64,000 nt of DNA, from contig NZ_LOFH01000004.1 in NCBI RefSeq assembly GCF_001469215.1, positions 62,001 to 126,000 on the forward strand. The letters run 5' to 3'. Positions 1 through 7,800 of the stretch are shown piece after piece (position 1 is the stretch's first letter; the number at the start of each line of letters is the position of its first letter). The notes beneath the pieces were generated by a model. The model was not told the origin of the DNA. It saw only the letters and a program-made list of their open reading frames with translations, and did no database searches. The DNA comes from Pseudoalteromonas sp. H105. Its GTDB lineage: Bacteria > Pseudomonadota > Gammaproteobacteria > Enterobacterales > Alteromonadaceae. Both the position numbers and the translations under genes were made by a program.

Positions 1-713
1 ACGCGTTTTTAAATGACCCCTATGCACAAAGCAAAGTTAACAATAGCATCGCACTGGAAGAGGTAGATACGCTCCAATACAGTGCTGTTTATTTTGTTGG
101 TGGAAAAGGCGCAATGTTTGACTTTCCTAACAATACATCAATCCAAGCCATGCTGCGTGAATACTACGAGGCCAATAAAGTCATTGGGGCTGTGTGCCAT
201 GGGCCTGCAGCACTGGTGAATGTTACTTTGTCAGACGGCACGCCGATGATCAATAACAAAACCGTCGCTGCATTTACCAACGAAGAAGAATTACTACTCA
301 TTCCAGATGCTAAAGAGGTATTCCCCTTTTTATTACAAAACAAATTAGTTGAACAAGGGGCGACCTTTGATGAGGGGTATCTGTACCTTAACAACATCGC
401 ACACGACGGTAACTTAATTACAGGACAAAACCCATGGTCAGTCTGGTCTGTTGCAGAGTCGATGATTAAGCAGCTTGGTTACACGCCAGTTAAGCGCCCA
501 ATCACCCCTGAAGAAAACACCATAAAGGTACTGATAGACTACGAAGAACACGGCATCGAACAAGCCAAAAACAGCATCACCTTTTTGCGTTCAATCGACG
601 AATATGCGCTAGATAGGACGATTATCGCCATTCATATGTTTGTTTATGCATTAAGGTGGGAACTAGGTAAATCGATTGACATGATACGCTTGCTTTCATA
701 CGCCAAAATATGA
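1..713 (+). CDS. DJ-1/PfpI family protein, 5' end outside window
   Basis: The frame is open from base 3, so the true start lies upstream and about 236 codons are visible. The protein belongs to the DJ-1/PfpI (class I glutamine amidotransferase-like) superfamily, which includes cysteine-dependent chaperones, glyoxalase III-type enzymes and many unassigned members. Seen directly: a strand ending YFVGGKGAMFD and a nucleophile elbow AVCHGPAAL, with the Cys codon at 195-197. The layout resembles Hsp31-type members. The last 70 or so residues, after KRPITPEEN, form a probably helical extension beyond the minimal fold. The next gene is convergent, so no operon partner is visible downstream. The family is clear; the substrate cannot be told from the sequence. 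Confidence 0.85.
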   Translation, partial: AFLNDPYAQSKVNNSIALEEVDTLQYSAVYFVGGKGAMFDFPNNTSIQAMLREYYEANKVIGAVCHGPAALVNVTLSDGTPMINNKTVAAFTNEEELLLIPDAKEVFPFLLQNKLVEQGATFDEGYLYLNNIAHDGNLITGQNPWSVWSVAESMIKQLGYTPVKRPITPEENTIKVLIDYEEHGIEQAKNSITFLRSIDEYALDRTIIAIHMFVYALRWELGKSIDMIRLLSYAKI

Positions 714-737
714 ATTAAAATAATGCTAAAGTATCGC

Positions 738-776
738 GTGCCCTGGTAACACAAAAATGCTTGCAGGGCACTATTT
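738..776 (+). terminator. possible weak terminator after the DJ-1/PfpI gene
   Basis: An 8-bp perfect inverted repeat, GTGCCCTG (738-745) and CAGGGCAC (764-771), encloses an 18-nt loop and is followed by TATTT. The loop is long and the T-run poor, so this is only a candidate for ending the upstream gene. Confidence 0.35.
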
Positions 777-855
777 ACAAGGCTGTCGACTAATGGAATA
801 GACGCTAATCTTTTATTTAGTTGAGCCTGTAACAGACTCTGTGTAACTTACCCTA

Positions 856-3800
856 TTAACTCTTTGCGACTTTACTTAACTTATATTTTCGTATAGAAGC
901 TGTGATAATTAGTAAACCAAGAGTAAACCAAGCCAAACTACCGCCCCCAGCGGTTTTCTCTGCTTTTATTGTGTCTTCATTCTCATTATTCGTTTTTTCA
1001 ATTACATCAAACCGGAATGTTGTACTTACGCTTGCCCCCTCACTATCAGAAGCCTCTATGGTTAGTACATGAACCCCTAACTCTTTTGCAAATACCTTAA
1101 GAGTAGAACTATTATTCTCAGACAGCCGAGCAAATTCAGAATCAACTTTATAGGTTAATGTGTCATTATCTCTATCATCAAAATAAATTGAAAGATCAAC
1201 TTCAAATTCACTATCTAAATAAACCCTATAATGATCAAAATGATACAATAGCTCTGGAGTTTGATTAAAGTAATTTAATCTTATTGCTATTGCTTTTTCA
1301 ACATTATGAAAACCATCTTGTAAAGTGAGCTTCAAAACAAAACCTCCTAGTGGGTAGTCAGCTTTGCTGTAGTTAAGCCTTAAAATATTACCTTCTAGTT
1401 TGATATTTTCATTCTTATTTTTTATTTCGAATGTGACTTGTTCTTCACTAACCGTATAACGACTTAGGTTAATCCTTTTTTCGATACCCGTGTTTACTTC
1501 AACTTCTTCTAAAGAAAAAACAGGTGGAATTTTGGATTTTTCCGTAATTTGAAGCTTTATAATTTTCCTTATCGCTTGTTCACCATCAGTAACTTGGACT
1601 TCAAATTCAATTTCATCGCCTATTTCCCAGCCACTTTGAAAAGTAACTTTAGAATTACCTAAACTATATATATTTATAAAAGAAGGTGTATTTTCTGTGC
1701 GGGAATAGAAGAGCTGATCATTGTCGGCATCATCAAATACCTTATTTATATCAAAATAAGCCTCTTCACCCATTTCAATAAAAATTTTATCTGTTATAGA
1801 AATAGGTGCAACATTTACATTATCATCAACTTTAAAAATGTAACTCACGTTATTTTCAAACTCGTCAGTAATTGGTAAAAAATAATTATGCCCAATTTGC
1901 AAGCCTCTGGATTTTATTGCATCTATAACTTCATTTGGAAAGTTTTTATAGCTATAAACAAAAGTTGAGCTTTTCTCAAAGAATAGAAGCTGAAATTCCA
2001 TGGTAGTGTCTGGCTCTCTATTTGAGGGCTCTGTATAATAGACGAATACACGTTCACCTTCTTCTCCTGCTACGCGAGCAAATGAAGTCACTGGAAAGTA
2101 AAGTAATTTAAAAGTATCTAACTCGTAAGGTACAAACTTTATAAACTCTTCCCATGGAACGGATATACGGTTGTATATCTCATACTGCGATGCAATGTTT
2201 GTAGGCCCACCAGTTGAAACATCATTCGGCGCTTTTGATTTATTTGATTTATTTACGGGAAGCTCACTGATACTTTTATTTATATCCTCAAGCTCATGGT
2301 CACTATAATTAAATTTTGTAATAACGCCCTCACCTATACTTCCAGTAAAAAAAGCCTTATTAAAAGCATCCTCAACCCCCCCAAAGTCCACATAAAAGGG
2401 AATATCACCTGAATGTCGATAGCTATCTTCTCGAACATCCCATACTAAAGGGTCAGTTTTAAAGTATTTATAGGGCTTAACTACAAGTACAGGGAGCCCT
2501 TTATTTGAATCTATTCTTAAATTATGCATCCCTGTTTCTTCAAACACTATTTTTGTAATATTGAAACCATCATTAGGAATAGAATCAGGAAATATACCAT
2601 CATCTTCAGCTTCATATATTACGTCCGTTAATTCATCTTTGATTTCAAGCTTACTTTCGATAGGATTGCCGCAATTTATGTTAATTGCCTTAATTATTAA
2701 TTCTTTTCCTAAAACCCGTGGTATGACATTTTCTAATGAGGGGTAGAGTCTCTTTGATACTTTCTGATCCACACAATCAAGTAAGCCTGTATTATCACCT
2801 AATAACTTTAGATATTTATTAGAAAGCGATAGATCAGATGGAAAACCATCTAGTCTATCCTGATAAAAAATAGTGCCTGAAGAAATTAATAAATTCCTCA
2901 CTTCTGACATTTTTAATTCAGAGTTAGATTGTAATACTGCCGCTGAGCCCGCAACTAAAGCAGCGGCAATACTAGAGCCTCTTGTATAACTATAATCATC
3001 TACCTCATCAGCACTTTCAACATCAAACAGTTTGATGTTATCAACATATACCTCTTTATCCTCACTAGAAGGATAACCATGGAATAGAAGCCTTATCTTT
3101 AGATCTCGTAAGCTTAGAAATATATCAGGGCTAAAATAAACAGTTGCATTTGTCCTCTGCCACTCAGACCCATAATACATACCATTACCCGTCATTGGCT
3201 GCCATTTATTTAAAGAGTGATCAAAAAACTCAAAATAAAATTCACTTTCTGTACCTAGTAAATCAAAGGATAAACCTATAAATTTACTCTTATATTCTGA
3301 AAGGTCTAATTCAGGAAACTCCAATGATGCATTTTCAGTTGAATAGTTAAACACCCAAGATTTCTCAGTTGTTGTAAATATGTCACTACTCAGTGCACCA
3401 TTGATAATATTATCAAGAGGGATATCTGCTTGTTCCAATTCAGTTATAAAAGTTTTGGGAGCATACCTTTTTTTATTTGAAGTTGTCTTAATAAATTCAG
3501 CTGGAGCAAAAGTAGAAATGGTATTTTCACCTTGAGAATTAAGCCCTTTACTAAGACTCATACCTGAAACTACAACTATATTTGACATCAAGAACGAAAA
3601 AGGAAAATAAGGTGTGTAATCTAGATCTAAATCTATACCTATTTTACCAAATCCATGATCCGCTGCAGGAGCAATAAGTAAAATTTCTTCAGCTTCAAGC
3701 TTCTCTAAAATAGTTCTAAATTTATTGATACCTGCATAAAACGACTTAGGCTCTGGCACGCTAAAAATTGCCCCCGCAAAACCAAAATTGAATAAAACTG

Positions 3801-4370
3801 AAGAAAAATTCAACTTTTTATTCACTTTTAAATCAATTACATAATCAACACAATTTTCTAAGGACTGGTATGTGAGGCTACCTTCATCATCATATAATTT
3901 ACAAGAAATTATTTTATTATTAGAGGCTATACCTGTAATCCCCTTACCGTTATTTTGCGATGCAGCTACAACACCTGCTAATGATGTTCCACTACCAAAT
4001 GGATCAAATATATCACCATTCATTTTATGAGGATTTAAACCATGGATATCATCGATTGCGCCATTGCCATCATCATCTATACCGTTAAATGCTATTTCGT
4101 CGTTATTAACCCACAGGACATCAACCAAATCCTCATGCCTATAATCAATCCCAGTTGAAAATATTACTGTAACTGTTTCTATAGATTGATCGATTCCTGA
4201 TCTTTTCAAATTTTCAAATTTTCAAAACCAACGTTATAGTTATTCTCCCCCCTGATGCTTGTCTTATTTAAATACCACTGAGTGTGATAAAGTGGATCAT
4301 TGTAAGAGTACTGACTTGCCTGAACATGAGTAGTCAAAACAAGCGCTACCATTATTATTATTTTTATCAT
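856..4370 (-). pseudogene. subtilase-like surface protein with cadherin-like repeats; frameshifted, possibly phase-variable
   Basis: An ATG at 4370 starts a signal peptide (MIKIIIMVALVLTTHVQA) and a subtilase-like N terminus (NDPLYHTQWYL). This frame stops at 4206 after 54 codons, inside a tandem 8-bp repeat. A second frame then runs open for 1117 codons from a TTG at 4209 to 856. Removing one 8-bp unit joins the two frames exactly. Counted from that TTG, the S8 catalytic positions are altered. The DTG motif reads IFSTG (Ser18) and the HGTH motif reads GSGTS (Ser73). The nucleophile motif GSSIAAALVAG near residue 412 keeps its Ser but lacks the usual Pro, and the oxyanion AGN appears as AAD. 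It would therefore be an inactive protease fold. Cadherin-like repeats follow (DDADND, DDRDND). The C terminus, GGGSLAWFTLGLLI then basic residues, resembles a GlyGly-CTERM sorting tail. Marked pseudogene because the assembled frame is broken; the long intact second frame argues against old decay. Confidence 0.75.
4203..4226 (-). repeat. three tandem copies of an 8-bp unit (TTTTCAAA on the plus strand) at the frameshift
   Basis: Three perfect direct copies occupy 4203-4210, 4211-4218 and 4219-4226. They lie in the coding part of the subtilase-like gene, about 48 codons after its ATG. By counting frames, two or five copies place the signal peptide in frame with the long downstream frame; the three present do not. 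Short tandem repeats of a length not divisible by three are the classic substrate for slipped-strand phase variation. Confidence 0.8.
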
Positions 4371-4467
4371 TAAAGACCTATTTTTGTATGTGAAATTTGA
4401 AGAGACTTCAAACCACTTTTATTATTCTATCAATTAGAACTCTAAATATTAATTACAATTAACATAT

Positions 4468-4815
4468 CTAATCTATAGCTACCTGCTGCGCCAACTGCTG
4501 TTTGAGTCGCTCGTTTTCTTCTCTTAAAAATGCGAGCTCTTCTTCCAGCGGTAATTTTTTATCTGCAGTGTGTTCGCCGTAGCGTTTTTCACGTAGGTGC
4601 ATAATGACTTGCTCTGAGCTGACAATATCACCTACTTTTGCTTTAAAGTTATGAATAACGCCTGCTTGTGGTGTCACAACCTCTAACACGGCTTTTTCAA
4701 GTTCTACATCAAACAACGCTTGATTAGCGATAACCTCTTGTCCATCATTCACGTAAATAGCGGCAATTTTTGCCTCGCCCATTGAGTCATATAATTCTGG
4801 TGCGTTGATTTCCAT
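4468..4815 (-). CDS. free-standing biotinyl/lipoyl-like domain protein with C-terminal coiled coil
   Basis: This 115-residue protein is a single biotinyl/lipoyl-type beta-barrel (about residues 3-75) followed by a charged heptad segment (about 88-112, LREENERLKQQLAQ). The lysine of the hairpin normally modified in this fold is present as Lys41 in ELEKAVLE. The usual DKA context reads EKA, so modification by lipoate or biotin is possible but unproven. The duplicated half (NDGQEVIANQALF / KVGDIVSSEQVIM) is typical of the fold. It is the last gene of a four-gene operon, 38 bp after the large AAA ATPase, and has a clear GGAG ribosome-binding site before its ATG. No dehydrogenase or carboxylase is nearby, so a role as a partner or swinging arm for the ATPase/flotillin complex is inference from position. 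Confidence 0.8.
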   Translation of the reverse strand: MEINAPELYDSMGEAKIAAIYVNDGQEVIANQALFDVELEKAVLEVVTPQAGVIHNFKAKVGDIVSSEQVIMHLREKRYGEHTADKKLPLEEELAFLREENERLKQQLAQQVAID

Positions 4816-4853
4816 TTCTTTTTCTCCTTTATGTTTAAAAGCAACGGATGCTT

Positions 4854-7800
4854 TTATAACAGTGTTGGCATAGAACCATCTTGCTGATCTTTTTCGCTTA
4901 CCTGCGTAACCACTTGCCTAGGCTGATTTTTTATTGCACTTATCAATACCTCCAAGGCCTGTTTTTGTTCGCTGTGTTGCGCAGCGTGTTGTTGCGTATT
5001 CTCTACGCTTTGCTGTGCGATAAGCTCAAGCACATCACGATTATTCGCAGTCTTTAACTCACTAAGCAACTGGCTTATTAAGTGTTGAGTTTGCTCGTTG
5101 CTATTGGCACTTTTTAACGCGGTTAATATCTCGGTTAATTTTTCACTGTGATCCAGTGTAGTCAATACGCTAAGCAATTGCTCACTGAGTGTTTGTATTT
5201 GTACCTCACTACCAGCAAGTATCGCCTGCTGTAATGCTAAAATGGCAGTATTAGGGTTAGTGTTGGTTATCGCTTGGGAAAGCTCGTTAAGTTCGGCTTT
5301 GGTGTTTAATTGCTCGGTTTGGCTATTTAACGCAGCAATCAGCTGTTGCACACCGTTTTGCATATTATTATTTTTAAGTGTGTGGTTGAGCTGCTCACTT
5401 AGTGCATCAATATGCGAAGCCGTATTATTACTCGCTATGGTATTTATTAATGTTTGTAGCTGATCTTTATTATCTAAAGGGGCTAAATACTCTGCTAACT
5501 GTTGCCCCAGCATAGCTAATGTTTGATTCGTGTTATTTGCAACAATGCCTTTCGTTAACTCGGTAATTTCACTTTTATTGTTTATTGAACCGATACTTTC
5601 ACCCAGCTGTGCAGCTAAAGTATTTAACGTGTGATTAGTATTATTTTCAGTTATTGCTTTAACTAACGCATTTAGTTGTGCTTGGGTGTTATTTTCAGCC
5701 GTGTTGTCTGCTAGCTGTTTAAGCACGTCTTTGTACGGTGTTTGCCCAAGGCCGCTTTCAACAGCTTGCGCAAGCGCTTGTATTGCATGGTTGTTGTCTG
5801 TCCCTTGCACATTGAGCCCCAGTGTTTGCAATAATTCGCTGTAATCGTGACTGAGGTTAGTTTTACTCAACTTACCGGCAATACTTTGCAGTGATTCATG
5901 CAAGTAACTCATTTGCTCAACAGCCATCATTACTGGGCTGCCTGCGCCATCGAGCTTATTGAGTCTTACAAAATCATCTTTAATTTGTGCATAACGCTGC
6001 TGCTCTTCATCACTGAGTGTACCGCGCAATTCACCTAATTTAAGTAAGTTTTCTTCTGAGCCTTTACTGAGAGTTTGCGCCTCGCCGCGATAGTGATCGC
6101 GAATTAAGTTTTCAAGCTCTTCATCGTTCATGGCAGCCACAACCTTCTCTGCCATTTTGTTCATATTACGGTAGCTACCTTGCAGTTTAAAAGGCGGCTC
6201 GGTGCGGTAGTTGTTATCTTGTGCGGCTGAAGCGATGTATTGAGCATTTACTTTTAGCACTGTGTTACGAATGGTCATTAAACGGGTTAACACTGCTTTA
6301 ATTTCGTTTGCCTCCGCTTGAGAGTAGCCGTGTTCAAGCTCATTTAATGAGATATCTTCGCCCTCGCAAATACGCACAAGTTTATATAAGTCCTCCATAT
6401 TGCGATTGGCAAGCGGCGCAAGTACTGAGTTTGAGGTCAACGAGTTTTCAATAAAGCTCATAGCAAACTCTTGTTCGCACCCTGCTAAGGTATCACCTAA
6501 GTTATATATATCGGCGCGGTTGGCTAGCATGTCAGGAATTTTAAAGCTCTCGCCCGACTCGGTGTATGGGTTACCTGCCATAACCACAGCAAACTTTTTA
6601 CCGCGTAGATCGTAGGTTTTACTTTTACCGTTCCACACACCATCAATACGGCGCGAACCATCACACAATGAAATAAACTTTTGTAAAAACTCAGGATTAG
6701 TGTGCTGTATATCATCCAAATAGAGCATCACGTTATTGCCCATTTCGAAGCTTTGGTTAATTTTAGCAATCTCTTTTTCAGCGGTTGCATTAATTGCTTG
6801 CGCTGGGTCAAGTGAGACTTGGTCGTGCCCTATTGATGGGCTGTTTACTTTTACAAAGGTCAGCCCCAATCGATTTGCCACGTATTCAACTAGCGTTGTT
6901 TTACCGTAGCCGGGTGGTGATATAAGCAATAACATGCCCATTAAATCACTGCGTTTATTTTTACCCGCAGAGCCAATTTGTTTAGCTAAGTTATCGCCAA
7001 TAATTGGGAAGTACACTTTATTAATAAGCTGATTACGCACAAATGAACTTAAAGGCCGGGCTTTAAACTCATCGAGTTGTAGGCGCTCTTTTTGCTCTGC
7101 AAGTATGTCAGTTCGCAGGCGGTGATATTGCTCAAATGCAGGTACTTGCTCGGTGATATAGTTGCGAGTGCGGGCATAAAATTCAGCGTAATCAAGGTTA
7201 AGAACCTGCTCTTTTACCCGCTTATGTTGGCCCATTAGGTTTTCAACTTGCGTGGTTGGGGTTACATCTAGCACTTGGTAAGTTAGCCCTGTACTGGCAC
7301 TTAAATGTAAATAATTAGCGGCTTCCGCTTGCACAACATGGCTTATCTCTGGGTAATGTAAGCAATACGCGTTTAGCCAGCTTAAATACAACAAAGCACG
7401 CTCATCGGTGCTGTTTACATTTTTACGCGCGCTTTCTAATTCGCCACTAAAGCCTTTTACTTTTGCCTCACTTGTAAACTGTTCTGCAAGCTTTTTAGCC
7501 TGTTGCGACACTACAAAGCAAAGCTTATCAGGTGCTTTTTGTTGCGCTAATTGTTGGATCAAATAACCGGCGGTTAAATCGCATGAAAAATCAGTGAAGC
7601 GTTGGCTCAGTAACTCAACTTGCGGCAAGAAATGACTGACTTGCGTGCTTATTTGCTCAGTTAAGTTGGTGATAAATTGTGTTGCTGCAAAGTGTTTATC
7701 CATCAATATGGCATTACTTGCCTGATGATAAAAATTGCTTAACTGCTCTGTACTTAATTGCGCACTAAATAACTGCGTAATAATACGGCAACTGGCAGGG

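Follow-up and report, generated by a model that had tools for sequence, protein, structure and literature searches.

A probable slippage allele at an 8-bp repeat puts a predicted surface subtilase homologue of Pseudoalteromonas sp. H105 out of frame

In the stretch of 64,000 nucleotides analysed here, hereafter the window, a large gene on the minus strand is put out of frame near its start by three tandem 8-bp units, and our results make it probable that this state reflects a recent ordinary slip from two to three units, which would silence a predicted surface protein, rather than a dedicated phase-variation switch. In the window lineage the codons for the motif F-[EQ]-x-[FL]-K, which is conserved only in part, would happen to read as two repeats of eight bases, to which polymerase slippage would have added a third; the third unit brings a TGA near the gene start, the protein would thereby be lost in the window strain, and back-slippage to two units might, at a low rate, restore an open gene. 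If the array is only such a slippage allele, it illustrates how the coding of a protein motif may happen to produce a short repeat through which a surface gene is easily lost.

The closed and the open allele

The gene starts at position 4370 on the minus strand with MIKIIIMVALVLTTHVQAS..., which by eye resembles a signal peptide, and this first frame comprises 54 codons (4206..4370, minus) and ends as VGFENLKI* at a TGA (4208-4206). The stop lies in the third of three perfect tandem units of TTTGAAAA (4226-4203, minus strand), an array that is likely one unit above the open allele and is read in the first frame as TTT GAA AAT TTG AAA ATT TGA. The rest of the subtilase-like protein is encoded in an open frame of 1117 codons (856..4209, minus), as seen from its translation, its match to the S8 profile and its alignment with the related protein P0001; no stop is found inside this frame from 4209 to 856, compared with 53 to 189 in each of the other five frames of the stretch. 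By frame arithmetic, with one unit fewer the first frame enters the 1117-codon frame, so the claim of the initial annotation that the two frames are joined when one of the three units is removed is borne out by the sequence, by the arithmetic and by the length of P0001. Its companion claim, of an ON state at two or at five copies, has to be corrected, for among n = 0 to 9 units the frame is open at n = 2 only; n = 5 and n = 8 do restore the frame, yet they are closed by the TGA in copy 3. In fact every array of at least three units is closed, because copy 3 carries this TGA in the first frame.

Judging from its protein sequence, P0001 indicates that an open allele occurs in nature. This protein, found in a protein collection where scoring was limited to the 7993 candidates with the most shared words, is 97% identical to the 1117-codon frame (1080/1117 residues) and has 1168 aa. 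Through the repeat site it reads NYNVGFENLKRSGID, from which two units are inferred at the protein level. The window allele most likely arose from an open allele of this two-unit type by one extra unit, because P0001 reads as two units and its length is exactly 51 + 1117 = 1168. P0001 is the representative, and its sequence the one used here, of a cluster that comprises 8 member sequences, drawn from 6 contigs, and may hide truncated members behind it; a search for the 54-residue OFF peptide as a short protein elsewhere found none, very short ORFs being often not predicted.

Concerning the age of the change, the 37 residue differences to P0001 are spread across 1117 residues and are accompanied by no further frame break. 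Under a rough estimate, in which the neutral shares and indel ratios of 0.05 to 0.15 are assumed, the expectation is 2.4 to 4.9 breaks if half of the divergence was neutral on the window branch, the probability of none being 0.09 to 0.007; with a quarter of the divergence neutral, this probability is 0.30 to 0.09. Old pseudogene decay is rejected on this rough estimate, in agreement with the earlier argument from the unbroken long frame. With the remainder of the frame so clean the change is therefore probably recent, and the evidence points to either a recent silencing or a frequent return to the open state, both of which fit the clean frame equally.

The repeat in relatives and in the genomic background

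Counting repeat units in relatives, as had been proposed, gave the two-unit reading of P0001 at the protein level. The four relatives of other species whose DNA was read (L002, L120, L121 and L032) have no 8-bp array at the corresponding position, and at offset 8 their sequences match themselves over 5 bases at most. At this site the proteins read GFEEFKQ (L120), GFQRFKD (L121), GYDKYLL (L002) and, with a placement made by eye, FGVLETE (L032). The DNA of L120, TTT GAA GAA TTT AAA, encodes a similar protein motif in another spelling. The repeat thus looks like a by-product of the F-E-N-L-K codons and not a maintained device, because the like motif of the relatives lacks the 8-bp array; this account, which rests on sequence comparison, has against it that F-[EQ]-x-[FL]-K occurs in only 3/7 members of the protein group described below (P0001, L120 and L121).

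As for chance, we took a sample of 404 kb out of the 4.47 Mb of this genome, made up of the window together with 17 further stretches, each of 20 kb, on its contig, and compared it with five first-order Markov randomisations of itself. The array at 4203-4226 is the only perfect 8-bp array of at least three units in the sample, and none appeared in 5/5 randomisations; for periods 5-12 the real sequence has three perfect arrays with three or more units (the 8-bp x3 at 4203-4226, a 6-bp x3 and a 7-bp x9.4) against 0, 1, 0, 0 and 0 randomised ones. When the threshold is lowered to 2.6 copies, the real count of 11 in the 404 kb is not above the randomised 6-12. The 8-bp array is modestly above chance and thus unusual, but a single three-unit array in a sample of this size does not amount to a repeat system. 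The 7-bp array, a perfect TAGGTGC x9.4 (L070:4392-4457, equal to G000:C4:290392-290457), is intergenic and lies directly behind the stop of a dehydrogenase gene which we take to be serA-like; as a candidate for differences in copy number among isolates it is perhaps superior to the 8-bp array.

A subtilase homologue without the catalytic Asp and His

The window protein matches PF00082 with 46.7 bits (cut-off 21.8), which places it in peptidase family S8, and P0001 residues 23-197 align with deseasin MCP-01 (PDB 3vv3) at E 4.7e-26. By sequence, MCP-01 and the active-type S8 proteases of the genus belong to the same family as the window protein; as aligned, MCP-01 has all three of Asp, His and Ser, whereas the window lineage has lost Asp and His. 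More specifically, the place of the catalytic Asp is taken by Ser (P0001 residue 69; 4156..4158, minus) and that of the catalytic His also by Ser (residue 124; 3991..3993, minus), and at the catalytic Ser the residue is kept, with GSS instead of GTS (residue 464; 2971..2973, minus). The initial annotation was silent on this character of the protein.

The same loss is found in all seven members considered here, namely P0001 (the two-unit allele), P0002, P0003, L002, L032, L120 and L121, all of them long open frames with PF00082 matches above the cut-off (31.8 to 79.7 bits). Asp and His are replaced in 7/7, so that none retains the triad of an active S8 protease, and Ser is replaced or not recognisable in 5/7: it is Phe in P0002 and L002, Ala in P0003 and Val in L120, the motif of L032 is not recognisable, and P0001 (GSS) and L121 (DNS) have kept it. 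For comparison, in 70 selected S8 regions (52 proteins of 120 listed and 18 genome loci, counted after removal of P0035, P0078 and P0088, in which the anchor motif is missing) all three of Asp, His and Ser are present in 61. The set includes P0001, P0002, P0003, L002 and L032, and in its four remaining rows (P0009, P0023, P0032 and P0044) a single one of the places is changed or gapped, in some of them perhaps through misalignment.

A quick tree, built without L120 and L121, unites the other five members in one group with 99% SH-aLRT; its branches are long (L032 2.78, P0003 1.85). L120 and L121 come from another family of the order (2/394 genomes besides the gene's own, E up to 1e-55, with two candidates scored per genome) and read VIFSNG/GIGT and VIAQG/GWGT at the Asp/His places. 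The members of known kinship, five of the seven, represent four genera and two families. The reading of the window protein as a protease in simple decay is rejected, as the other members have also lost Asp and His. The shared loss of both residues in seven divergent and long homologues suggests selection for a non-proteolytic surface role, for instance binding or scaffolding. No description of this lineage of dead subtilases was found in the literature searched, and we regard it as more interesting than the repeat switch and as meriting follow-up. An AlphaFold2 model of P0001 had a mean pLDDT of 56.3, too poor for use.

At the other end of the protein a GlyGly-CTERM-like tail is encoded (886..948, minus). 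TIGR03501 matches only the window protein (12.1 bits) and P0001 (12 bits), both below the cut-off of 15.5, and by eye a Gly-rich motif, a hydrophobic stretch and a basic end are seen in 7/7 tails. A rhombosortase is present in the window genome (TIGR03902, 159.1 bits against a cut-off of 84); in control genomes the same model gives weak matches in 14/14 and one over the cut-off in 0/14. Surface sorting of the window protein is only predicted, because the tail scores under the TIGR03501 cut-off. In L032 (L032:169-3885, genome G198) a series of thrombospondin type 3-like repeats stands ahead of the tail.

Locus and distribution of the gene

The gene is accessory: among the matches listed, with at most 6 candidates scored per genome, the full query is matched in 2/108 genomes of the genus, the window genome included. 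The neighbouring ATPase gene is found in 47/107 genomes, and by this ATPase the closest genome is G074, with 96% identity. Its flanks are kept, at 97% over window 1-783 and 90% over 4483-5600, and between them 746 bp with a different ORF of 127 residues replace about 3.7 kb. When the stretches of 12 relatives at the ATPase were compared by blastn, both sides aligned in G074, one side in G036, and ten were unaligned, so the replacement is stated for G074 only. The ORF of G074 (L108:7465-8210, against window 784-4482) has itself a signal-like N-terminus, and its neighbours are what we take to be a DJ-1/PfpI-like gene on one side and a lipoyl/ATPase gene pair on the other. In G057 a relative of the gene is found at another location, adjoining what is presumably a glycine dehydrogenase gene. 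A related ATPase is annotated as 'DNA repair ATPase' in plasmid records, and in G071 (C106:17720-23186) the match to the large ATPase next to the gene falls into two adjoining open frames, either a split gene or an assembly error. Among the genome contigs searched, no locus carries the DNA of the gene's nearest relative; among plasmids, 8/72,556 records match, 5/8 of them from Pseudoalteromonas, with only partial S8 matches covering 10-16% of P0001.

Alternative explanations of the array

The initial annotation had read the array as probable phase variation, which in full would mean that the population toggles at a high rate from an ON state with two units to an OFF state with three or more, and back, as bet-hedging of a surface protein. 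Part of this reading stands: a one-unit change did put a large gene of secreted type out of frame, and the open allele is seen in the ON reading of P0001. Moreover, the array is above chance in the 404 kb, the gene is of surface type (signal-like N-terminus, S8 match, a weak Ig-like match and the GlyGly-CTERM-like tail), the 8-bp unit lies within a coding frame and is not a multiple of three, as a phase-variable repeat should, and the 1117-codon frame free of further breaks also fits an allele that often switches back. If switching were true, we would have a simple bet-hedging device in a marine-type bacterium.

An evolved switch nevertheless finds no support in the short array, the single ON number and the count of 0/4 relatives, and we hold it to be unlikely. 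Classic contingency repeats are ON at every third copy number, the repeat being free of stops in the ON frame. The window array departs from this pattern, as n = 5 and n = 8 are closed by the TGA, and with n = 2 the sole open number among 0-9 any expansion means OFF. Considering copy number among isolates, one relative, P0001, gives a two-unit reading, at the protein level only; a second OFF allele was not found as a short protein, which is a weak negative, and the array is absent in L002, L120, L121 and L032. The three units also fall below the PhasomeIt cut-off for longer units, five or more, which in the available part of the Campylobacter survey (PMC6321876) is given as configurable and chosen for that genus; by unit number high mutability is thus not indicated here, although the same part of the survey describes the mutability of repeats as a continuum.

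A special form of switching would be one-sided: two units would be the sole ON state, the TGA in copy 3 would shut all longer arrays, expansion would shed the display of a dead subtilisin and exact contraction would restore it, and the gene would encode a phase-variable pseudoprotease of an undescribed, widely scattered family of rhombosortase type. We find this combination more doubtful still than phase variation in general.

There is little chance that the third unit is an assembly or consensus error and the strain truly has two units; the assembly is a draft of 26 contigs, but a false extra unit is unlikely because an array of 24 bp is shorter than usual reads and is not a homopolymer. Most improbable of all is that the three-unit gene is still expressed, by a -1 frameshift at the putatively slippery heptamer A AAT TTG (4215..4221, minus), which is in zero frame with the short ORF, has the -1 slippery form X XXY YYZ and would lead into the long frame, or by reinitiation at TTGA (4206..4209, minus), where the short-frame stop shares bases with a TTG from which the long frame might start. 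Against this, the repeat itself gives rise to the heptamer as a by-product, and a reinitiated protein would be without the signal-like N-terminus. The folding of 4230-4120 is somewhat better than that of shuffles (z -1.75, with 8/200 shuffles equally or more stable) but not clearly exceptional.

Comparison with known systems

The available part of one survey (PMC2605481), which covered five families of serine proteases in 91 genomes, counts 42 of 966 proteins as putative inactive homologues. CspC and CspA of Clostridioides difficile are, like the window protein, subtilisin homologues, and in the accessible portions of two reports they are called pseudoproteases (PMC6636752, PMC12880746); as far as these portions describe them they are soluble proteins of spore germination, whereas the window protein is predicted to be secreted and has a tail of sorting type. 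The NCBIfam CspC model matches 1/7 members (P0003), with 13.4 bits against a cut-off of 675.

With respect to the repeat, loci with phase variation by simple sequence repeats in Haemophilus (PMC2651432), Neisseria (PMC5084427) and Campylobacter (PMC6321876), in the parts of these papers available, resemble the window array in that a change of copy number puts a gene out of frame. The window array differs from them in its fewer units, in its single ON number among 0-9 and in being found in none of the relatives compared. Nearer to the genus, the extracellular polysaccharide of P. atlantica, according to the accessible text of PMC2536512, is phase variable through IS492, by which a marine bacterium of similar kind alters its surface reversibly; that switch works by mobilisation of an insertion sequence, whereas slippage would act at the window array. 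No description of a slippage switch in this genus was found in the open literature searched.

For an ordinary slip from two to three units, which we prefer, the nearest counterpart is the CTGG x3 in lacI, a hotspot at which one unit is gained or lost, in P. putida and, according to work cited there, also in E. coli (available part of PMC3485313). Like the window array it consists of three short perfect units in frame, a one-unit change shifts the frame, and no dedicated machinery is involved; its unit is of 4 bp against 8 bp in the window, where the change is deduced from a pair of alleles. By this analogy the lacI hotspot would be the best model for the history of the window array.
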